A model generated the notes under the pieces. The model made no database searches, was not told the origin of the DNA, and saw only the letters and a list, made by a program, of their open reading frames with translations. Both the position numbers and the translations under genes were made by a program. Below are positions 29,001-64,000 of a stretch of DNA of 64,000 nt, piece by piece (position 1 is the stretch's first letter; every line of letters begins with the position of its first letter). This DNA is from Branchiostoma floridae. Taxonomy: Eukaryota; Chordata; Leptocardii; Amphioxiformes; Branchiostomatidae. The DNA lies in NCBI RefSeq assembly GCF_000003815.2, contig NC_049983.1, forward strand, positions 17,764,746 to 17,828,745. Reading direction: 5' to 3'.

Positions 29001-32000
29001 TATTATTTTAACGGACACTGACAATTAATCTTCAACAAACATTTCATGAAACAAGCCTTTGGAGTAGGCCAAGAAGGCAAGATAAAGGCAATGGAAGAGG
29101 GTTGGGTGGGAATGAATGAACAAAAATGTACCGGAAAATTGAATATGAAAAGAAATAGGTTTGCAAATTGGTGACTACAGTAAAATGTTTTAGAATTTTC
29201 TACCCTCCCCTTGTACAAATTGTTTTGGGCTGCCACTACAGCAAATACAAACTTGCTGACAGAGAAACACAAGACACTGTTAGTACAGGTGGTCCTGTGC
29301 TGTTCAGGCCATGTTATGTACTGTTTTATTTTCTGATCACAGATAATCTGTTGTAAGAGCCTCTTCTTTCAATAAGGCCAAAGGAATCTAGTAACTTGTA
29401 TCACGGATTTGTTGCCATTGAATAAGAATGTCTTGCTTTACATACATAGAACGGTAAATGTCTTACATATAGTATTCTGCCACAAACTGTCAAATAACAT
29501 GCACCCCCCCCCCCAGATACACACACACATGCACACACATACTCTGACACTGTCTATCTTCCCCCCTCTCTCTCTCTCCCTCTCTCTTTCTCTCAGAACA
29601 TAGGAGTAAGATTCAACATCACAGAGAAATACAACATGAAGAGGAAGTATTGATCATTAGATTTTCGTCTCCAGCATTTTATCGTAAGACATTTTTGGGT
29701 GTTCCTGTATCTCACTCACTCTCACCTTCTTGTGCAGGTCATCTATAGGGTGCTGCCCCCAGCCCTGGAGGTCGTCGACCCCTACAGCCAGGAAGTGCGT
29801 GACCTTCTGCGCATCACCAACCTCCGCATCAACTTCACCAAGCTGCACACCCTGGGAGACGAGCTGCTGGACAACCGGCCCAAGATCCGCGAGAAGTACT
29901 ACTACGCCGTGTACGACATGATCGTCAGGGGCAACTGCTTCTGCTACGGCCACGCCGAGACCTGCGAACCTGTGGACGGAGTGACTCCCGTGGAGGGAAT
30001 GGTAAGCTGTTCCATTCACCGTAAAGTAGGTTTCGGTACCAGAGAAAAGTTTGTTGCAAACAATGCACTACAAAAGGGAAGGGAATAGAAGAGGGAGTTA
30101 AAAACTATCCCTCATATATCATGTACTAGCAATGAAGCTTTACATAAACAATGTCTGAAATGCAGAAATGAAACAACTGTAAGCCTAGACCTACTACCTA
30201 CTGCCTAACCCAGTCATCAAGTTGGTATAAAAAACGTACAACCCAGGTTTTAGATAGAGAAGGAAAAGGGCTAATTCGCTTACACACAGGTGACAGGTGT
30301 TTGATTTGTGCACAACTTTTTCCCTGCCCTATCCCCAATAACCAATGCAAAGTTGGTGTCAAATGGCCACCTTAGCAGAGAGAATTGAATTGATGATTTT
30401 GGTTGTGTGATTTCCAGGTTCATGGCAAGTGTGCCTGTAAGCACAACACCAAAGGTCTGAACTGTGAGGCCTGTCAGGACTTCTTCAACGACCAACCCTG
30501 GAGACCCGCGCGTGGACGGGAAACCAACGCCTGCAAACGTACGTCCCTAACTGTCATTATATCCACCAATATGGTGATGTTCATGTAGAATGAAAATCAT
30601 TTATGGAAGAAAAGAAAATGTTCCTCTAAATTTGTAGACCTATGTAATCAGTTTGTGCTGCCTGTAGGTCTGTGTAATGTACTGTTGCATTTTGAATAAA
30701 TAAAATAAGATAAATAAAGTTGTAATAAACTTTGGCAAGACATTCCTAGGAGTCTCTGGGAGGCCTGGCTTGTGATTTCAAGACTGCTTCCTTTTAAGAA
30801 CGATCTGATGGTAAATGCATGTACCTTATAGCCATGTACAGGTTTGGGAGGTAAAAGATGGTGGAAAGAAAGGTAAAGGCCCACCTTCCTATACCGTGCC
30901 CTGGACACACTTGGTGGTTAACATCTGCTGCCCCTATAGCGTCAAAGGCTATGGGAGTTTTACTTTTTTGTTTTCATAAACATGATTAAAAGTACATGTT
31001 TTCTTTTCCAGGCTGTAACTGTAACAGTCACTCCAACAAGTGTCACTTTGACCCTGCGGTGTACGAGCAGACCGGGCGCGTGAGTGGCGGCGTGTGCGAC
31101 GACTGTCAGCACAACACCATGGGCAGAAACTGCGAGGAGTGCAAACCCTTCTACTACCAGGACCCCAACAAGGACATCCGCGACCCCAACATCTGTCTAC
31201 GTTAGTATCCTAGTGCTTTTTTTTAAGGAATTTGAGGTGGTACTGTACAATGCTAGTAATATAAAACAGTTGAAAATTTTTTTTGGTACGTTCAGAGTTA
31301 CTTCCTCCTGACTGCCCCAAGAAAAGATATATTTCTTACACTTCAGACTTGGGTTGGAGCCAACTGGTGCCCACTTTTGTTTAAGTGATAACTGTAAATG
31401 CTTGTTTAACTTAAGTGCTAAACCGCTGACAACTTTTAGCAGACAGATTGAGAAAAGTAAAAAGAAACCTCATTCCATGTTTAAGGCCACCTAAAAGATA
31501 TAGAATTTTACAAGGTCGTAAAACATTGTACTGTTTTCGATTGTAATCCAACACTTAAGTTGCTGTGAATTCTATGTTTCTGTGCATAATAACCATTGCC
31601 TATCATGATTTGTGAAAGGCAAAGGCCTGGATGTATTTGTATATTCCCAATTTTGCTGGAAATTTCTACATCACTTTCCATAATATCCAATTTCTTTCAC
31701 AATTGGCAAAGCCAAAGGTCTGGATTTATTTGTGTTTGCCTAATTTTGTTAAAACAGTGCGCCTCATTTATCACTTGGCTTCTCTGGCCCTGCAGTCCAG
31801 GGACACCTTAATACATGTTCCGTCTTAATTTGATTCCGCCCAGTCAAGATGTCAATCCTCGGTATCTTCATCTTGATAAGTGTAGTGAAGGTGTAGCCTA
31901 AATTAGCTTTCCCTCCACCTCCCGTCAGACGGCAATCAAATTTCCCCCGACTTGATTAGATTGCATGGTGGGCAGAGGAGACAGCAGACATGGCAACGCC

Positions 32001-35000
32001 CCCCTCCCGCATCAGACCGTGACCCCTGAAGGTCGCCGGCTGGTGATGGACAGTGGCCAGATTCTCCCAGCTCTGTCTTGCCAGATCCTTTCTGTTCCTT
32101 TGAAGAAATCTGCTTGGAAGAGACTTTCGACATTGATGGATTCCCCTATAAACCCAACGCACGCTGAGCTCAGGATCTTTCCACCAATCGATAAAGTGAT
32201 ACGTGTCTACTTTATCAGATTAACATCGGCAGTGACTATCGTTGACCCCAGTTGACCCAGAAGTGGTGCGCTGCATTCTTGCAGCTGATTGGATGATTGA
32301 GAGAAAGCCCTTTGTTTGGACGCAGAATGAAAAAGTAGGGCAAAGTGAAGCTCGGCAAGCTAATTTGAAAAGATGTATGTTTACAACATACGGACTTTGG
32401 TAACAGTGCAGGCTGAAGAACCTAAGTCTAAGGCATGCCAATGTTTGAATCATACAATGCTGACATTTCAGTTCTCTCCATCCAGTACATTAAGAAACGG
32501 AAACCTGAAAACCTTCTGTTGTTGTTGAAAGATTTTAAATGACAGAATCTGCACAGGGACCCAATACTTCCTTTATTCATAACGGCATTTTGCCAAAGAC
32601 CCAATAACTCAGAGCGCAGAAAGCATTACTAGCCATTAGAGGGGGCTGGCAGTATTGCATACTTTGCACAGCAGATGGGTCAATGTCAGAGCCATGGAAA
32701 CAATTAGCCTCTAATTTGTTATGGTCCTCTTTTGACCACTTGGGCTGGCAGAGGCCTTTGATGTTGAAATATCCCCTGCACAGTAGGTTACTGGGGGAGG
32801 ACTACAAGTAATAGGTTGCACATCCATCCAGCTTGGAGTGGATATGCTATATGCAAACACAGGAAGCACTATGATGATAGATTTTGAGATGTTTCTTCTT
32901 TTTATTTTATGTGGAAAAGTTTAAAGCAAACACATTAATTTTGGTCTTTTTTTTTCCTGGTGTGTGTAGATACTTGAATATTGTAGAGTGATAGAATGTG
33001 AGGTAGAAGATGTGCATATGAATACTAGCAGGATCGGAAGGATCGCATTGCCTCGGTCCAAAGTTTGACAGTATTAGCAAGAAATTCGCAGTCATAAATA
33101 ATGCGGTAAATTCACAAAAAATTTAATAGATATTCCATGAAGGTATGAGTTAAACTTCTTGTTTCCCCATCTACAACTACTTTCCCATCGTAACAGTTCA
33201 GATTCTAAGCTTTAAATCTGAAGTTCCTATCAAATCAAATATCAACCCATCAACTATGGCTAAATTGTCTTTTTCACACATACCTCCACAGCATGTGACT
33301 GTGACCCTGATGGTGCGGTGAACGGAGGAGAGTGCGAGAGCCGCACGGACCCCGCCAACAACCTGGTTGCCGGGCGCTGTATCTGCAAGCGTAACGTGGA
33401 CGGGGAACGCTGTGATCGCTGCAGGGGTGGATACTGGAACATGCGAGCAGACAACCCCGAAGGATGTGAAGGTAGGGAGAGATGCTATCATGTACAGAAG
33501 CTTTCTGTTATGTGTGTCTTGTTTGTCGTCTTCGGTTTTGATATATAAGTTTCTTTTTACATTTGCATACCATCTTTAAATGTTTTGATATTTTGCAAAA
33601 TTTTTCGGTATGTTCTTAAATTCCTGTATTGTCTGTTTAAAATCATGTAGCTGCTTTTTGAAACATTGTCAAGATTTTCATGTTTCGACTTAATTCACTC
33701 TGCTCTTGTAATTGAGACTTATGCTTCAGAAGATTGATTACAAGAAAAATTTGCTAGCACCTTGAATGGTTTTAGATTTTTAACATGTATTGCAACCTGC
33801 AATGTGAAATCGCTAGAACATTAGATAAGTAAAGATACCTGTTAACTTCTTTCTGTGTTTGTTTGCTGTTATGCAACCTGTCTAGTCTTGTTTACGTGTT
33901 GTGTCCTGTTCGAACTGTATGTAAAAGCTTTGCATCTGTTGTTTTGTGATGTTGCTTGTTTTGTGATGTTATATTGTGTATGTTGCGTTGACGTGTGGCA
34001 TGTTTCTGTCTTGTCCCCTCCGACATTTGACACGCAGCGACCCCATTGGTCCCTCATAAGTTGCATGCCGACGAACCGGAGAGCAGCAGCTGGCTCCGAC
34101 AGGGCCAGCCCATGTGGCCCTACGTGCCCGGTCTACGCCAAAACGGTCGTAAGTCGTAACGGATGGAAAACATTGGTGGCCAGGGCTGCAGAGCAATTCA
34201 CACACGCACAACTTAAACTACTGGAGCTGCTGCAAAAAAAATGAATAACGCCTCATTTTTGCATATTTTCTGGTTTGGTTGCACATCATTCTCACAGGGT
34301 GACAAGGTGTTTTGTTTGACATGTGCTCTTCTGTGCTTAATTGTTCTTCTTAACTGTGGTGTTCTACCTTCTTCAAGGCATATGGAAGTGGATGCAAACG
34401 GCAATGTTATGCAGAACAATTCGTTCAAATTTGGTGGAAAGATATTCCCGTTTCTCCAGTCACTGAACATCACCAATTACAATGGCCAGTGAAGGCCTCA
34501 AGTTCTTTTTGACTACGGCACTGTGTTGGATAAGAATGTATGTTACGGACGCATCTGTCTGTATACTTTTTAATGCCATTTAAAATATTTATTTTTAACT
34601 TTTTTCAGGGCTTAAAATTGAGACCCCTTAGAAAAATAAGCAACATGCTCTCAAACTAAGCTCCAACTGTCCGTGAATCAACAAAGAAAAACCTTTTCAA
34701 CACCTTAAAATTTTGTCTGCCCAACTGAGCACCCAGCAAATCAGGGTTGTTGTCATGGTAACCACATTCCACATGCCCTGCCTGGAGCACATGGCTAACC
34801 CAATTGCCAGTTCACAGGTGTCGCAGATTGGTGGGGAAAGGGACTGGCCTGGACACTTCAAAGGGAGGGGATTGCAAGGTGTCGCAGGGAGCCTTTTAAT
34901 AAACGCCACTTACTCCGACCTCCGCGCGCTGACCTCTGACCTGACGTACGGGTTGAACAGGCCGCCATTGTCGCGGGGTAATCATAATCATAGCCTGTTC

Positions 35001-41000: not shown

Positions 41001-44000
41001 CTCTTTTGTGCCAGCTTATCCCTAATGCTTGATACAAAGACTACGCAAAATGTAAGTTGTCCATTCAAACCTTGGCCAAATTTAGTCTATCCTTTAATGG
41101 AGTATATTTCTTGAAAGCCCTCGACTATAATGATCATCATATAAAACTATTGTCCTAATTTCCTTGTACAAAATCAAAACATGTAATTGAAAATAAAGCC
41201 TTTAAGAACCTGCTCCAATTGCAACCATTTAAAACACCATGTTCATTTCCTTTCCAGGTGTAAGGATGGTTACTATGGCGACCCCCGCCTGCAGCCTGGT
41301 GGCTCACAGCCGTGTAGGGAGTGCATGTGTCCCGGTGGGATCAGCAGCGGCCGCCAGTTTGCGGACAGGTGCTACCAGGACCCACGCAGCCAGGCCGTCA
41401 TCTGTAACTGCAACGAGGGATACACTGGTCAGGCTTCATGCTCTGCCGTTTCCTTAGGGTTGGGAGGGGGGGGGGAGGAGCATTCAAAATGGGGACGTTG
41501 AAAAGGAAAGAGAAGTATGTGTAGGGAGGATCTTTATAAACATCAGAAAGGTTATCTAAAGAAAAGTAGGAGATGAGGAAGAGTATATCTATGTGGAGAG
41601 AGAGCAGAAGAATTGTGAAACAGATTAAGATAGGAGGCCTCCAACTAATGGACTTAAGAGTTATTGGACATGACTGAAGGAGAAGGACCAAGGTGGCTTC
41701 CTGAGTCATGACTTCTTTTAACACATCAAAAAGAAGAAAAGTAGAACCATAAATAGAAAGAAATAGGCAACCTACTACACTTACCATATTTTGAATAACT
41801 TGCCTACAATTAGTCTTTGTCCATTCCTCAAATAACTGGATTGAATATGCTAAGATTTTGTGGAAGGCATCTGAAAGTGTTGTGCCTTTTACCTCAGGTC
41901 CCAGATGCGACAGCTGTGCACCTGGTTTCTATGGGAACCCAGAGGTGCCCGGCGGGAGCTGCCGCAGGTGCGAGTGCAACAACAACATCGACATGACCGA
42001 CTCGTCCGCGTGCGACAGCCGCACGGGAGAATGCCTCAAGTGCCTGTACAATACGGAGGGACCCCGCTGCGACCGCTGCCAAGCAGGCTATTATGGCACG
42101 GCCAAGGACCAAGACTGCAAGCGTAAGTCTTGCGAGGATTCCGGTCTTGCGTTACGGTGGCACATATTGGCTTTTGTTTGTCTAAACCATGCTAAATGGC
42201 TGTGTGTAACAATGACGAGTTTATGCAATTGTCTGCCTAAGCATAACAGCTGATTTTTTTCCAGAGTTTGGTCCAGTGTTTAAATGATATGGTGTGAAGG
42301 GAGGGAAAGCTTATCCCCCCCCTGGAGTCCCCCCCCCCTCCCCTGCCAATCTGCCCCAGTTCCCCAACACCCCCCCCTCCACTTTTGTGCTTGGAAAAGA
42401 AATACCAAAGTGTATTTTACACCCTCCTGCTATTAACTCAAATCATCCTTTATAACTGACACAACCCTCACGTTGATTCTCTTGTATTTTTTCTTTTTCT
42501 TATCATCACTGGTGACGAAAAGTTTATCCTATTAAACTGTTCCTGAGGTGTTTGGGGCCAATTTCATGCGGTGCTCCCTGGTCAGTCACACTTGTGAATC
42601 TTCCTTCTGGAAAACTTTGCTGTATGCTTCTCTTCTGGGCTGCCCTAGGTGTCCAACCATCCCGTAGTTTGGTCTAACCCCACAGCCTGCATGCCTTTTT
42701 CTTCACACCAAGTAGTAAGCGCACATGACGAAGATGTGCTTTTGTAATATAATCATTTTTACTCATGCCGCAGTTGTACCGAAAACGAGTAGCAACTAGT
42801 GTTAACTAGCAACTCTGACTGTGGCTGTAGTACTACTAGTAGTACTCTGCTTCCCTTGCACTTCTTCCATGTGTTCTCCACTCTACAGCTGTCAGTTTCC
42901 AGGTCTTGTCAAATTCCCTCAACTATGAGGAGACAGGCCTTAACAAACTGCTCCGAAAGCGAAGGGAAACCACAGATTTGTACGGTCATTACAACCAGCT
43001 GTCCAGAGGGGCTCTAGGTTATCCGTTCGCCAGGCCTCGAGTCCCCCTCTCCTCCAAGCCACGAGCCCCCCTCGCCAGGCCAGGGCCAGTCCCCCCCAGG
43101 CCAGCAGGCCCCACCACCAGACAGCAACCTAGTAAGTGCTGTACAGGTCAGAGCGGAGAAGGTGGTTGTGAACGGGAGGAAATGCTTCTCTCGGGGCTCC
43201 CCTGCCTAACCCAACAGCATGGAGCATTTTCGGAGCAAGTGCTGCTCGGAGAAAAGTCTTTTTTACGTAACAGGGTTTGCTCATAACATAACATGTGGAT
43301 GAAACATGCTATTCCTCATACACAACCAGAGGGTTGCTTGTGGGTGACTGCTTCTTGAACTTGAAGGTACACTGCATGAGAATGCGCCATGAGCCGCTTC
43401 TAAAGACCATTTCCTACATGTTACGCCTGATTCGTCTTTGCTACAGACGCATCTTTCTGCTTTGCTCGGCGTCGGACAATGTTTTGCTCTTGGGGACGGT
43501 ACTGCACATAGTTGCCAGCTTGGTAACTCTCAAACGCTTCCAGGGATCGAAATTGGCAATAAGCACATACGCATAGAAATGCTTTAAATTATAAAATTAA
43601 ATTTTCATTTACCAAGTGATGATAGTGATTTTCTGTTTGATCACTCTTTTTACATATGACACCATGACACTTTTTTGCCCCCCAATCTCCCATGCGGAAA
43701 TGTAATCCACCCATGCAAACCCTTTGCTTCCCTGTTAATTTCTCTCCCTGGAAATGTATTCTATGTACCAGGTGTTTTGGGGGCTAAGCTTTGTAGGTGG
43801 CAGGTTTCTCTGATGCAAGGCAGGACATGATGAGGAGTTTCACATGGATAAAGCCACGTAAATCAGTTTTCATGGATAACATCTGCTCGCCTTCAGTTTT
43901 GACATGGACCCGGAAAAATCATGGCACCCTATTTTGGGCCCCCTTTCCACTGGACGGCGATGCTGAGTGCTCAAAATTGGACCCGTGTGACCCTTGATTT

Positions 44001-47000
44001 TATATTTGAAATATGATGCACGGTATAAAAGTGTGATTAAAAAGATTAAGACAACAAAACATAGAAAGAGTAACAAGGTTTTCTCTTTATCTATGATTGT
44101 ATGAAATTCATGCAGCGCTCTGTTGAATTTTGGGTGACTCAGCAGTCGCAGCACGATTGACCAAATGTTGTCCATGAAGCTTCTGTGGCGAAAACACATT
44201 GTGACTTGTCAATGTGTCCACTTAAAAAGGGTATCAAAACCTGGACTGCAGCTTTTGGTACAAGAATTGGCTGTTGGTGGCAGTGTCACAGCACGTAATC
44301 ATGGGCAAACGGCTTGAAGTCTGGCAAAAGGCAAATAAAAAGTAAACCTTAGTCAGCTTGCATAATTCCCAAATCAGTATATAATAATGCTTTGCATTCC
44401 CAACCCCTAAAACCCCATAGAAACTACCCGTTAATTGAGTAAAAGACAAAAATCCTGAGAGATTTTTGTCAGCTTTGATAAATTGCTTTGCTTTGCATTT
44501 CTGACCCAGAATGTTTTTTTCTATTTCATTTATTCATTCATTCATTCATTCATTCATACTTGCATTGATTAATTAATTCATACACTCAATCATCCACTAT
44601 CTCATTTTCATTCAATCATTCATTCATGATTTGTTGTAAGCAACATTTTAAATAGACAATTTGATGTCTTTGCACACACTAAGACAAGCTTTCTCTGCTG
44701 TGGTGGACATGTTGTCCTGCCATGGGACTGCTTGTTAATGTACATTTGAGAGCTGCATTTGCACATATGCGACACCACGACCAAGTATCAATGCTTGCCA
44801 GGAAGTATACAGTTGGTGGCTGTGATCATGTTGCCCAGGTATCAAGGTGGACATTGACGCGGGTGGCATCTTGTCCTACTAGAAATCTAACACTTCAATC
44901 GTGTGATGTTGTGTTGGTATATTGGTGCGCGGCATTGACACTGCATGTTGGGAACTCAGGTCAATGCAGGTTGTGTGGTGTGACGGTGTTTCCACTGTGA
45001 ATGTTGTTGAATGTGAATGTTTTTTTTCTGTTTTGCTGTTTATTTTGTGTTATTGGAAACCAACCATGGTGGAGCCTTGATGAAAAAAGTGCATGCTCGT
45101 TGCTTTCCCAGGCAAGGTCTTTTTTCTCAATGAAAGAAAATGTGCTGATTGCTTTTTGATGACATGAAAACAAGCTCGGTAAGTAAGCCTTGCCATAGCT
45201 TAAATGTATTTCGAGCACGTTCAACTGCATAAGTTTGATTTTGCCTCTTATTTTGCTCATGGATAAAGGATATTTGCTTACATCACTTGCCCATTAGCAC
45301 ATCACTTTTCAGTCAAAAGTTGCAAAAGTCCCTTCTTGAATCTGGCAAAATAAAACCATCCCAGCAGTTGAACTGTGACGTTAAAAAAGGCTCCATCGGT
45401 TGGTTGCTGGCATGTGCTTTGTGCCCTGTGTGTGCCCTCTAGCACGGCGAGTGCCGCAAAGGCTTGTGGAGGTCGTACAACGACCCCAGGCGCAGCAGGC
45501 ACCGCGGGCGCGCCGCCCGTGTCAGGCCGGCTGTCGTTGCCAGCAGGGGTGTGGTTGTGGTGGTTGTTATATCCCAGCGCCCCCTGCCCCAAGAGGTACT
45601 GGTACCGGTACTGCAGCTTGGTGTGATGCCTCTCTGCATGGGAAGTCTAGGTGTAGCTGGTGCATGCTGTACATGTCTGGCATTATTGTCGAGAGTTCAT
45701 TTGGGCTCCTTTCCTTGTGAAAGGCACAGTTTTTTTGTAAAAAAAAAAAGTTTTTTGTAAAAAAAAACTCTGCAGTTCACATGGGAGAGAGCCAAATGTT
45801 TACATTACAGTGTGTTAGGTTAGCTGACAAGTTTTATGTAGGAGTGTTTGTTGGAAGCCCTATCCAATTCACTTGCATGAAGGGCAACCTCAGAGAAGGC
45901 TAAGAGAAAGTACAGTTTGCTGACTTTGTTTTCTCCTCTGTAGGTTGCGTGTGTAATATGCTGGGAACGGACCGCACACGCGCCCGTTGTCAGGACGGAG
46001 GCCTGTGTGAGTGTGACCGTGCCACCGGGCAGTGTCCGTGTCTGCCCAACGTGGTTGGTCAGCAGTGCGATCGCTGTGCCCCCGACTACTGGAAGATCGC
46101 CAGCGGAAGAGGCTGCGAGGCCTGCAGCTGTGATCCGGTCAACTCCCTCTCCACTCAGTGCAATGAGGTTTGTTTTTAAGTATATGTTTCTGTGCAGGAA
46201 ATGATAGACAACAGAAGGGAAGTTTACTGGCATTCTGCATGGAGGCCATTGGTGTATTCATACTAGAAGCAGAGCATGATAGCAAAACAGTTTGTAAATT
46301 AAACCTGATAGATACAATCCCAAGCATAAGTCATTAAGTGCACCTTCCCAGCAATGACAACATCAACAATTGAACTCCAAGGAGGGACGACACAGATGAG
46401 GTTAAATGGAAATTCTGTTTAATGGCATAAGCCTAGACTTAGAACAAGATGGCGAACACTTTTGAGACCTAATGATATCATCATAACTCATGAACATAAC
46501 AGTAGCACAACGATGATTTGACTTGTGTAGTGCATATTTTGACCAGTCGTCTTTCTTCTCACAGTTTGATGGACAGTGTCGCTGCAAGCCCGGATTCGGA
46601 GGACGTACCTGCACAGACTGCGAGACCAACTACTGGGGAGACCCACGATCCCAGTGCTCGGGTGAGTTCTTCTGACTTGCAGTATTTACTATATTCGTTT
46701 TCAGTCTGTTTGTGTTTGTGTGTGTCCATATAGTTATTTAACTCCTTTGAGTGACTAGAGGTTAGTAAGATCAAACTTGCCAGGGTGACAGGAAGTAGAG
46801 TTCAGAGATGGTAGGACTAGTCATTAATCAGACATGACATCCAGGTCCAGGTCATGGGGTCACTGGAAGAGGCTACTAAATTACAGGGAGGTAGTGTTTT
46901 TGGTCTGTTTATATTTTCCCAGTTACATGTTTTCCCAGTTACATCTTTTTTCAAAACAGTGATATTTTGCCTGTCAGCTTCCTATATTGAGATTATGTTT

Positions 47001-50000: not shown

Positions 50001-53000
50001 CAAAGGTACGGTGTCTGATCATCTTGAAATGTGAGGCAGTCTGAGTGGCATATAAGTGTACTCACTTCTGACCCAATCCATTGGCAACCAAGGTTGTGTG
50101 TTTGTCGTCTTGTCTTGAAAGAGCAGGGCTCGAAATAGTGGGTGCAGGTGCACCCAGGTGCACCCAATTATTTTCTGTGGGTGCACCCAAATATTTTCTT
50201 GGGTTTATGTATGTTAAGATATCAAAGTATACTATCATACATCATATTCTTGATATCTAAGTATTAGAAAGATAATAAAAAATTCTGTCATGGTACTTGT
50301 TTAAGAATTTGATAGCATGTAGCTAAGTCTTGTTATTAGGTTTTTCTGACAGTCTATTTAGATTTAAGTGGTGCACCCAACAATTTTTTGGTGCACCCAA
50401 TTTTTTAAGCTGGGTGCACCAGTGCACCTAATCCCAAAAATGAATTTCGAGCCCTGAAGAGTAAAGTGTTGACACTCCTCAATGTTGTGGTATTAAAGAA
50501 CTTTACATGTTTCTGTGCAGGTCTTGATGACAAGGTGAACGCCCTCCTGGAACAGATCAGCGCCTTCCTCCAGGGCGAGCACGCCGACCCAGACAGTGTC
50601 CTCGCTGTGGCCCAGGAGGTTCTAGCCAAGGTCAGTTAGGTGCAATACTGTAACATAATGTAAGGCCTTATGGATGACATCAACACATTCATTGATTTTT
50701 GACATATTCTGAGAGAAAAAGAAATTCTGTTCCCCTCCAGAGATGGTCATCATGACAAGGAATAACAAAAAAGGGGAAAATGTTGGTACAGTGAAACTTG
50801 TATAAGCGACCACGTCCGTAAGACGACCATCGGCCTATTACGACCGCTTTTGGCCGGTCCCGAAATTCCTCCCCATAGAAACAAGCATTAAGCAACGTGG
50901 CCAAAGCGACCACTTGTCTTCTGTGACCGCGACCACCCCGAATCCGGTCCGCCCGCGACCGAAATGTTGCCGAAGACGACCGCGTCATTTTCGAGTGTGT
51001 AGTGGCCTCGATTTTTGATGATATCTGGCGGGAAATCCGCTAAAATCGGCTTGTGTTTTGGCGAAGAAAACTTGCCGAAACGACTGCGTCACTTTCAAGA
51101 CTGTAGCAACTGTCGATATTTGATGATAACTCGCGAGAAATATCGCTAAAATTGGCTTGTGTTTTGGCAACTAAAATGTTACCGAAACCACTGCGTTATT
51201 TTCAAGGGTATAACAACATCGATTTTTTGTCATAACTGCCGGGAAATTACGACAAAATCTGTGTGTTTGGGTTCTGTTTTCGCGCCGAGCCAAAATCAAA
51301 CATGGCGCCCAAGAGGTCAAACGGTGTCATTGGGAAAGTCCACTGGAGTGTAGGTAGAAATGTTGCGTGCGTTGTTATTGTACTCTACATTTAAACCCTA
51401 CAACATGCAAATTTATTTTCATAAAACTTGTTTGAAGAAAAGGTAACAGATATAGGATATCTTTATGACTTTATAACACATTTTATTAGAGAATAAAAGG
51501 TGTCTGTGTGTCTTTTTGAGAAACTGCTCACCCTTGCTTCTAGTGAAGCGTCGATTTGTCAACATCTCCATGATTAGAAGCGTCGGTGGGGTTAAACTTG
51601 TTTTTCTCGGCAAATTTTCGCCTTCTAGGCAGCGTTGAGACTTTAAGACCCACGCCAGAAGAGAAACAAACTCACCCACATTATTTTCATGGGTAACAGC
51701 GTTGAAATGAACCATTTATTTTTCTGCCGTGTTGCCGATTTGAAAGAAGGTTTCCGTCTTGTCGGGCGTGTATGCGCGTGCTTTTTTGTTATGGCGGTAA
51801 GCTCCCCAACTTATTTCTAACCCGTTGGCTGTGATTCACAAAGTAAAAAGATAGGCAATTAGCGTTGTTAACACGAAAATCGCATTTTAAAACGCTCGTG
51901 GGGCGTCGGGTTCTCCACTGAAAACAGCGATGTTTTTGTAGCAATATGGACCATTGTCTTGACGGCGTCGCCCATTCACAAGTTTTGACAGACAATGCCG
52001 GCGAGAAAAATGACGCTGCTCCGGCTACAAAAAGCTACGAATACATGTATTTGAAAGCCCTAAATTTTGGAAATGTTTCAATTTTACATCAGTTGGTATA
52101 ACAATACTATATAAATCATACAGGAAGACAGTTCAACAGTGATAATGTTTCTCATGTGCAAATGTACAGGTTCGTGGAATTAAACAATTTTAAAGACCAT
52201 TAACTTTGAAATCATTGTGTCTGTCCTATCTTGTCACTTTTTCTTTCTTTGCACAAGAAGACCACGTGTCTAAAACGACCACTTTGCACTTTGTGGTCTT
52301 CTTAGACAAGTTTCACTGTAACTTGATTGTACTTTCAGAAGTGACACCAGTTTGTGACTTTTATGTATAAGAGACAACATTGTGGTACTTGAGTGTAGTC
52401 GTGGACAAGCAAATACTGCAAACTTTGGAACACAAAAGATTTCAAAATTGACTGTATTGAGCGTCTACACAAAATGACATCTTACGTAGTATTACACAGA
52501 CCTTTTTCATTCTAAAGTAGCATGTTACGCCGTGGCTTATTTGTTGCCTTTCTCTCACCACACAGAACATCCAGTACACCCCGCAGCAGATCCTTGATCT
52601 GGCGAAGAACATTGACGAGAAGGTGAAGACCCTGTCAGGTGTGGATGCCATTCTGGAGGCCACAGAGAACGACCTGAAGACTGCACAGGACCTGCTGTCT
52701 GCAGCAATGAAGGCCAAGTAAGTGCACGCTGATCTTGTTGTAAGCGTTTTTTTTTTTTGCATTGCAAAAGTCTGTTCTGTTTATTCTTTATTCCTTTTGC
52801 TGTAATTAGAGCCTAGGTTGCCCATCTAGTTGTTGGTTATTATTAAGGGCTAATGTTGGGGTACATTGTAGTAAGCGTTTTCTTGGATCTTAAAAGTCTG
52901 TTTTGTTTGTTGTTTGTTCATTTGGCTATGCATACAGCTAAGGCTTCCCATCTAGTTTTTAGCCATTAACCTGGGGACAATACAAGGTAGTTGCATGACT

Positions 53001-59994: not shown

Positions 59995-60597
59995 TAAAGG
60001 ATGTTAAAAAATGTTGATGTCTTGTCAGATGTGTCCAGAAGTTTGCTTTTCATCAAAAGACTGGAATTGTTACTCTCAATCCATGACAATTAAGCTTTGT
60101 CCTGTTTATATATAATATAACGACACTCTTTGTCTCTGATGCTGACTGTATGCACATGTGCTTTGGATGCCCAAGTACTTGACATATAACACGTCAGTTC
60201 ACCTTTAGTCGCAGGGTAACCTTTCTCCGTGGTATTTAACACCAGGGTATTTCGGGCCCGGGGATGTCAAGTCGACGGACGGTAGTCTCAAATTTAGATT
60301 GAAACAAGAAAGCTTCTGAAAAAAGCTGCCCGGTGCGTATTTTGGAAAAGGCCTGAATGTTAAACAAAATCACATGAAAAAAAGAGTTTTTAAACATCGA
60401 ATTACTGTCTGTCCTCTATTAAAAAAACATTACATGACATTTGTCTTACACTGAGAAATGGACAGTCATGTTATTTGTATTTATGAAAGATCGTGCGTTC
60501 CTTCAGTGCGTAAAGCGGAAACTTTAATATCGTTCCGAAATTTTCTTAAAATGGGCAACTTTTAAACTTTTTTGGGCAATTTTTTAGTGAAAAAGGG

Positions 60598-60733
60598 ACC
60601 GTGCGGGTCGGAGCTGGGACGTGTGGGCCGGAGCTGGAACGTGTGGGCTGGAACGTGCGGGCCGGAGCTGGAATAAGTGCGGGCAAGAGCTGGACCATGC
60701 GGGTAAGAGCTGGACCGTGTGGGCCGGAGCTGG
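60598..60733. repeat. GC-rich minisatellite, seven units of about 20 bp
   Basis: The consensus unit is close to ACCGTGCGGGCCGGAGCTGG. Units start at 60598, 60618, 60638 (6-bp deletion), 60652, 60672 (2-bp insertion), 60694 and 60714. Because 20 is not a multiple of 3, the open frames on both strands are a by-product of low complexity rather than genes. Confidence 0.9.
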
Positions 60734-61929
60734 AGTTGTTCTCTGGGCACAAACCTGGTGCTACGCACCGGGAAAAAATGCAATTTGAAACCATGCACAG
60801 TCCATCAACATGATATCCATAAATATCATGTTTTAGGTACAACGGATACAGGTTACCCCATGCACGAATAAAGGTGAAATAGCGTTACACATAAATTGAA
60901 TCGATAAGGTCGAGATTCGGTCATATTATCATATAAACATACGGCAATTGCAGAACAATGGAAAGCAGGAGACGCTGTAGTTGTTAGATGTGTCCCGAAG
61001 TTTGCTTCTTAAAAAGGCAATTATAAAAAAAGTACCGAACCACACTGCTTTTATAAGTGACAGGTAGGGTTCTCTGCTAAATAAAATGATACTGAGATTT
61101 ATTTTTGTTAAGCTATGACTGTTTTTCCAGGAGCAATTCTATGGTTATGATTTTCTTGAAATGGAAATATTGGTTTACTCTCGGGTACACAGCGATCCGT
61201 TCCGTAGGAGGCCCAAACTTTATTTTACATATGATGTATACAAAGGTTCGAACTATAACTGTGCCAAAAATCAAGCAAATTGATTTGCCTGTAAATGAGC
61301 TAATGGTCAATAAAAATGGTCAAAAAATGGATTTTTGTGCATTTTGGAAATTCACAAAAATACGTCATTTTTAAACATCTGCTGCACCTCACTACAAAAA
61401 CATTTTGAGCATAACTATAAATTATTTTTCTTATTAGAATATGGGTGATAACATATGCGAGAATCAATAAGATAACTGTTTATTTTGGGCGGCTACAGGA
61501 GTCCAAATAATGTCTATCTTGGACGAGACTAAGGCCTTCCCTTGGTGAAAATCCTCCATTTTGAAAAATGGCCGTTGCCATGGCAACTGGTGAACGCAGA
61601 TCTAAAACATTGGCATTTTTGTAAGTTTGGACCAAGGCTCTACCACCACACAAAATTTGAGGAAAATCGTCTTTTTTAGTTTGGCCACCCTATGCTTAGT
61701 TTTTACAGACAGAGCCTCTTAACAGTTTCATAACTACTCATGCATTTATTTTCATACGTCGATGTAGGTTAGACATCCATGTAATAAGATACGCCAAAAA
61801 ATAGTTACTCAAGTAACTGGCATATTTATTTTCATAATTATATTTCAGCCATACCATAGGTATGGTGAAATATATTGTATTCGTAATGTTTCTTTCTTTC
61901 TCCTGTCAAATCTTCAAATCGATTCAACC

Positions 61930-63751: not shown

Positions 63752-64000
63752 TTACAGTGGACAAATGAAAGAACACAGAAATTCAACTTCTTGTACGATG
63801 ATGTCACTTGTAGGGTGGATGGCGTCCTTGTGCCACTGTTGTGCGCTTGTCATCTCCCATGCATCCACCAGTACCACATCCATCCCCTCAAACAGCTCTC
63901 TCATGACCTGATCGAATCTGTACGCCAGCCAGTCTCCGCCGTTAACCTCACCACCAATGAACGTGTTGGCAGACTTGATGACCACCATGGTCCTCGGGCT
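63752..64000 (-). CDS. C-terminal exon of an NXPE/PC-esterase-like protein (partial)
   Basis: The minus-strand frame is open from the window edge to a TAA at 63752-63754. It encodes SPRTMVVIKSANTF, GGDWLAYRFDQVMRELFEGM, VVLVDAWEMTSAQ, then AIHPTSDIIVQEVEFL and a final FICPL. The order Asp-x-Trp-x-Met-Thr, then IHP, then a hydrophobic C-terminal VxxFLxxxC matches the tail of NXPE family proteins, whose PC-esterase fold carries a catalytic Asp and His. The ATG at 63986-63988 is probably internal. The gene continues beyond the window, and the family call rests on about 80 residues. Confidence 0.5.
   Translation of the reverse strand, partial: SPRTMVVIKSANTFIGGEVNGGDWLAYRFDQVMRELFEGMDVVLVDAWEMTSAQQWHKDAIHPTSDIIVQEVEFLCSFICPL

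Follow-up and report, generated by a model that had tools for sequence, protein, structure and literature searches.

The short arm of the laminin beta1 and beta2 chains is built of an LN domain, the modules LE1-5, an LF domain and LE6-13. The disulphides of each LE module are confined to that module, and loop d of one module packs on the next, giving a rod (PMC5338690). As described in the same source, the inserts known from laminins are folded domains, with L4 located inside an LE module and LF after a truncated one, and the LF of known laminins does not disturb the regularity of the LE rod. Polymerisation depends on LN domains, and laminin chains that have none lack this prerequisite (PMC11260871).

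The short arms of laminin 332 are proteolytically shortened after synthesis, but the excerpts of PMC11260871 that report this describe no alternatively spliced cleavage linker. LaNt alpha31, which is made from LAMA3 by intron retention and intronic polyadenylation (PMC9788559), and netrin-4, the product of a separate gene, are LN-LE proteins for which a disturbing effect on laminin networks has been described or proposed (PMC9788559, PMC11260871). In the receptor ApoER2, exon 6B/7B encodes an RXXR motif, and isoforms with this exon release a furin-dependent, dominant-negative soluble fragment in vitro (PMC7410921).

The window analysed here, a stretch of 64,000 nucleotides of Branchiostoma floridae DNA, contains most of a laminin beta gene on its plus strand. 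The exon table of the gene comprises 27 exons (21536-54806), which join stop-free into 1,714 modelled residues; neither signal peptide nor last exon is part of the model, and the chain is incomplete at both ends. It shares the architecture of beta1 and beta2, with an LN domain, LE arrays and a beta-type LF domain in Pfam (Laminin_N 1.1e-81, LAMININ_IV_B 1.3e-72, EGF_laminin 7.4e-49). In a PDB search, the closest solved relative of its LN-LE4 region was laminin beta-1 (4aqs, E 6.1e-227). The following features of the gene are considered below.

41898..42122, plus strand: upstream laminin beta exon, encoding the end of LE9 and LE10 (exon table, Pfam EGF_laminin, alignment to the gamma1 LE modules of 1NPE/1KLO)
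42123..45943, plus strand: host intron of 3,821 bp, phase 1, between the LE10 and LE11 exons, GC 0.445 (exon table)
42889..43131, plus strand: proposed cassette exon, hereafter the block, 243 bp, phase 1 to 1 (sequence, translation, splice scores)
42843..43286, plus strand: stop-to-stop frame of 147 codons, enclosing the block and extending past both of its splice sites (open reading frame, sequence)
45944..46167, plus strand: downstream laminin beta exon, starting in phase 1 and encoding LE11 and the start of LE12 (exon table, Pfam, gamma1 alignment)

The LE10 exon ends in phase 1 (GAC TGC AAG C/gtaagt, the slash marking the splice site here and below). The LE modules themselves are from Pfam, their numbering was counted by eye on the joined exons, and the alignment of the chain to the gamma1 LE modules continues across the LE10/LE11 junction. 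In 1NPE/1KLO, the stretch of gamma1 aligned to the loop of beta LE10 (41898-42122) is NDNIDPNAVGNCN. Gamma1 LE8, in the region aligned with this loop, is described as binding nidogen (PMC6744579). Copies of the host intron elsewhere in the window were limited to short low-complexity or palindromic matches. Within the intron, a palindromic segment of about 100 bp (45698-45798, 76% self-complementary) lies between the LE11 exon and a second GC-rich island discussed below. Another laminin intron contains a tandem repeat (51008-51247, 106 bp, 2.3 copies), which adjoins a CpG-rich island at 50841-51010 (CpG o/e 1.42).

The remainder of the window contains a minus-strand coding fragment at 63797-64000, which matches NXPE4_C (E 1.3e-19) and is truncated by the window end. 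A GC-rich minisatellite at 60596-60734 (20 bp, 7.2 copies) has several open frames on both strands; its scores on the codon measure are high, yet it is not a likely gene. Rfam at gathering scores and ARAGORN gave no matches across the whole window.

The original prediction held that the block is a cassette exon, and its description of the site was borne out in part. The segment at 42889-43131 is 243 bp long in the sequence, the intron given as 3.8 kb is indeed the phase 1 intron at 42123-45943, and the position between LE10 and LE11 agrees with the count by eye, with Pfam and with the gamma1 alignment. The acceptor (CTCCACTCTACAG/CT) and the donor (CCTA/GTAAGT) follow the consensus as claimed. 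The frame is open in the laminin register, with one and two stops in the other two plus-strand frames, and both ends are in phase 1, so that LE10, block and LE11 join stop-free. Such symmetric phase allows a cassette exon and a constitutive exon alike. The block consists of 80 whole codons and one split codon and, spliced in, reads CK-P-(80 aa)-S-CVC. The peptide is cysteine-free, basic and proline-rich, as had been stated (no Cys, 12 Pro, net charge +9).

No Pfam family matched the peptide up to E 10, and the PDB held no significant match (best E 1.5). A search of viral contigs gave 69 pattern matches, none of which was confirmed. A single-sequence fold of the peptide was of low confidence (mean pLDDT 60.5, pTM 0.22), with a helix at residues 4-37 followed by coil.

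For scoring the splice sites, matrices were derived from the exons of the gene itself together with a generic prior; the generic matrices and the amino-acid frequencies are general values supplied by hand. Of the 27 used exons, 12 do not exceed the block in acceptor score, 8 in donor score and 7 in the sum of both, and the splice sites of the block are therefore ordinary for this gene. The open frame around the block is not delimited by these sites, and two longer sense frames, of 170 and 153 codons, are found in other introns of the gene.

How often a comparable arrangement occurs by chance was assessed by counting candidates, defined as phase-fitting, open, 120-600 bp long and with a splice-score sum of at least that of the block. 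The sense introns (28,126 bp) hold one such candidate, which is the block itself, and none is found in their antisense, reversed or complemented copies. When any phase is counted, the numbers are 1 (sense), 3 (antisense), 3 (reversed) and 1 (complemented). In 150 shuffles that keep the dinucleotides within 100-bp blocks, a phase-fitting candidate equal to or better than the block appeared 8 times in the host intron and 12 times somewhere in the full set of 26 introns. In a threshold-free ranking over introns, controls and flanks, the block was 8th with the trained matrices and 13th with the generic ones, and a longer form of it (42889-43146) was 10th with the latter. With the trained matrices, seven control pairs outrank the block, and one symmetric candidate placed higher than it lies in the flanks. 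A stricter-looking count of 1/400 was set aside, its thresholds being the candidate's own values. The chance excess of the combination of splice sites, frame and phase is thus borderline, being suggestive and not decisive.

The codon content of the block was compared with shuffles keeping dinucleotides and an open frame, using leave-one-out training and 54 to 150 open shuffles each. The known coding segments in this test numbered 28, and those over 300 bp were tested on their first 300. The block gave p=0.276 as a whole, 0.061 for its first half and 0.935 for its second half. The first half shows a weak coding tendency, which is seen in the right frame only. Among the known segments, p was below 0.05 in 24/28, with a worst value of 0.152. 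Furthermore, the per-codon coding score of the block (0.11 with generic and 0.07 with laminin codons) is below that of all 26 known internal exons, the minima of which are 0.13 and 0.20. Its total exon score exceeds that of 5 of the 26 known exons with generic codons (7.5), and of none of them with laminin codons. The GC3 excess is 0.050, and lower values are found in 3 of the 28 known segments. The CpG o/e is 0.40 in the block and 0.45 in the host intron, and averages 0.76 in the known exons, only one of the 27 lying below the block (0.36).

Codon bias may be missing from linker exons of low complexity, which lowers the power of the codon test for the block. Likewise, a model whose training set is laminin modules and the coiled coil would score a real linker of low complexity unfavourably.

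The claim that the splice signals coincide in a GC-rich island did not hold. The stretch with GC of at least 0.60, defined by merged 120-bp windows, is 42961-43215 and is displaced from the splice sites; it begins 72 bp inside the block and ends 84 bp beyond the donor. The block has a GC of 0.588 against 0.445 for the host intron, with 0.497 in its first 145 bp and 0.724 in the next 98 bp, followed by 0.571 in the 84 bp past the donor. Besides this island and the second one in the same intron, five further GC-rich islands are present in the introns of the gene.

On balance, the most likely reading, to which we give somewhat better than even credence, is that the block is a chance exon-like arrangement. 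Its features are present, yet not clearly above chance, and its content is not exon-like. In this case an acceptor with a good polypyrimidine tract and a good donor, GTAAGT, would happen to flank an open frame, 243 bp apart. The frame stays open partly because the second half of the block is C-rich, CpG-poor and of low complexity, and is open in all three plus-strand frames. We infer that the block is not used as an exon. Were it spliced nonetheless, this would be as a rare cryptic exon and, because the block is in frame, with little effect.

Counted for the chance reading were the codon score, the per-codon score, the shuffle counts, CpG, the displaced GC stretch, the openness of three frames and the Pfam and PDB nulls. 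Counted against it were the splice scores, the status of the block as sole phase-fitting candidate, the phase and the placement between two LE modules, the tendency of the first half, GC3, the generic total score and the reduced power of the codon test. Of the cassette exon as originally read, the splice sites, phase and open frame thus stand, whereas codon content, per-codon score, CpG and a better-scoring rival pair of exons speak against it. The likelihoods that we attach to the readings here are judgements and not computed posteriors. Among the matches listed for literature on amphioxus laminin, a beta-chain insert or a splice isoform, none deals with the subject by its title or the opening of its abstract, and the laminin beta gene is not described in the excerpts of PMC2607016, a paper on amphioxus vessels.

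The alternative that survives best, which we consider rather unlikely, is that the block is a genuine lineage-specific exon, either cassette or constitutive. It would then separate LE10 from LE11 by a linker that is flexible, basic and rich in proline. The ordinary splice sites, the open frame and the fitting phase are consistent with this, as are the phase and the position at an LE-module boundary, both being what an insertion requires. Precedents for parts of the reading are exon 6B/7B of ApoER2 (PMC7410921), the laminin chains without LN (PMC11260871) and the disulphides closed within LE modules (PMC5338690). The codon, CpG and composition tests are all contrary to it. The candidate insert would differ from L4 and LF in being probably unstructured and in lying between two complete LE modules. 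As LE modules pack into a rod, an insert between them should act as a hinge.

A genuine exon would also bring a motif into the chain, located as follows.

42954..42965, plus strand: RKRR codons, residues 22-25 of the block peptide (sequence)

R-x-[KR]-R is a furin-type cleavage motif. It is absent from the 1,714 modelled residues of the laminin beta chain (signal peptide and last exon lying outside the model), and its presence in the block argues for a genuine exon. On the other hand, among 20,000 shuffles of so Arg-rich a peptide R-x-[KR]-R arises in 14.8%, and R[KR][KR]R in 1.85%. Moreover, the helix predicted by the low-confidence model would span RKRR.

Judging from the motif, furin-type convertases could cut the beta short arm at RKRR. 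Such a cut would detach LN-LE10, since each LE module closes its own disulphides. By analogy with laminin chains lacking LN, the trimer could then be left without the beta LN domain for polymerisation. In its fullest form, which seems to us a long shot, the reading is that the block would be an optional exon with a furin-cleavable linker, and splicing would set whether the short arm remains attached or is cut during secretion. Like exon 6B/7B of ApoER2, the block would be a small optional exon encoding a furin motif within a modular protein of the extracellular space; ApoER2 differs in being a receptor with an exon seen in mRNA, whereas the block is known here from genomic DNA alone. The shortening of the laminin 332 short arms after synthesis would be a further likeness. 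A released beta LN-LE10 might disturb laminin networks as has been described or proposed for LaNt alpha31 and netrin-4, although neither of these arises from cleavage at an optional linker.

It is improbable, in our judgement, that the host intron instead holds real coding sequence in the form of two other exons, together 68 codons.

43034..43131, plus strand: candidate first exon, phase 1 to 0, sharing the donor of the block in another reading frame (gene-finder posterior 0.97)
45443..45548, plus strand: candidate second exon, located within a GC-rich island and leading from phase 0 to 1 (posterior 0.99 with laminin codons, 0.75 with generic codons)

The pair has a gene-finder total of 27.9, against 4.5-7.5 for the block alone. 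The total of the pair is reached by 1/120 (laminin codons) and 2/120 (generic codons) of composition-keeping shuffles, and its joined frame is stop-free. The second island itself (45443-45595) is GC-rich and exon-like in its CpG (o/e 0.84, or 1.01 for 45443-45548), the GC stepping from 0.490 to 0.726 at acceptor 45443. It has a coding signal in phase 0 (codon test p=0.008), and so looks more coding than the block, but in a phase incompatible with a direct join to the LE10 exon, which is why the gene-finder prefers the two-exon pair. Both the exon-like CpG and the phase 0 signal support the pair.

Against this, the gene-finder favours GC-rich islands because its background is AT-rich, and it gives exon calls of 0.93-0.94 in a reversed copy of the host intron and of 0.72-0.98 in two other introns (31960-32052, 34038-34148). 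The parts of the pair are also individually weak. The segment 43034-43131 alone gives p=0.20 in the codon test, with a CpG o/e of 0.29, while 45443-45547 gives p=0.063. Furthermore, acceptor 45443 is weak (score 3.96), the peptide has a lone cysteine, and the pair is one among several models examined. Being post hoc and weak in its parts, the second-island signal was rated a rival and not a finding. The second island could also be part of another transcript.

Both calls in other introns were recorded as exon-like candidates. The one at 34038-34148 is 111 bp long, phase 1 to 1, and lies in a GC-rich island of the LE3/LE4 intron (posterior 0.97-0.98). The one at 31960-32052 is weaker (0.72-0.76).

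A secreted LN-LE10 product resembling LaNt alpha31 (PMC9788559), made by intronic polyadenylation after read-through of the LE10 exon or with the block as last exon up to the stop at 43286, is very improbable, for although both read-throughs are open for a short unique tail and AATAAA/ATTAAA hexamers occur in the host intron at 42531, 43596, 44036, 44334 and 45349, an AT-rich intron can be expected to contain hexamers of this kind anyway and the good donor at 43131 would compete.

Under the preferred reading, that of a chance arrangement, the block is of use as a calibration, as in an intron of uneven GC shuffling alone can bring together splice sites of consensus form, an open frame and a matching phase. 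Since this occurred in 8/150 shuffles of the host intron and 12/150 of the gene, codon and CpG tests are due before a segment is declared an exon. If the block does prove to be an exon, a non-vertebrate laminin would have a beta short arm whose interruption is controlled by splicing. Should the cleavable linker hold as well, one gene would give rise either to a polymerising laminin, or to a non-polymerising trimer together with a free, netrin-4-like LN-LE10 inhibitor. A real exon would also make possible a direct test of how the polymerisation of basement membranes is tuned.
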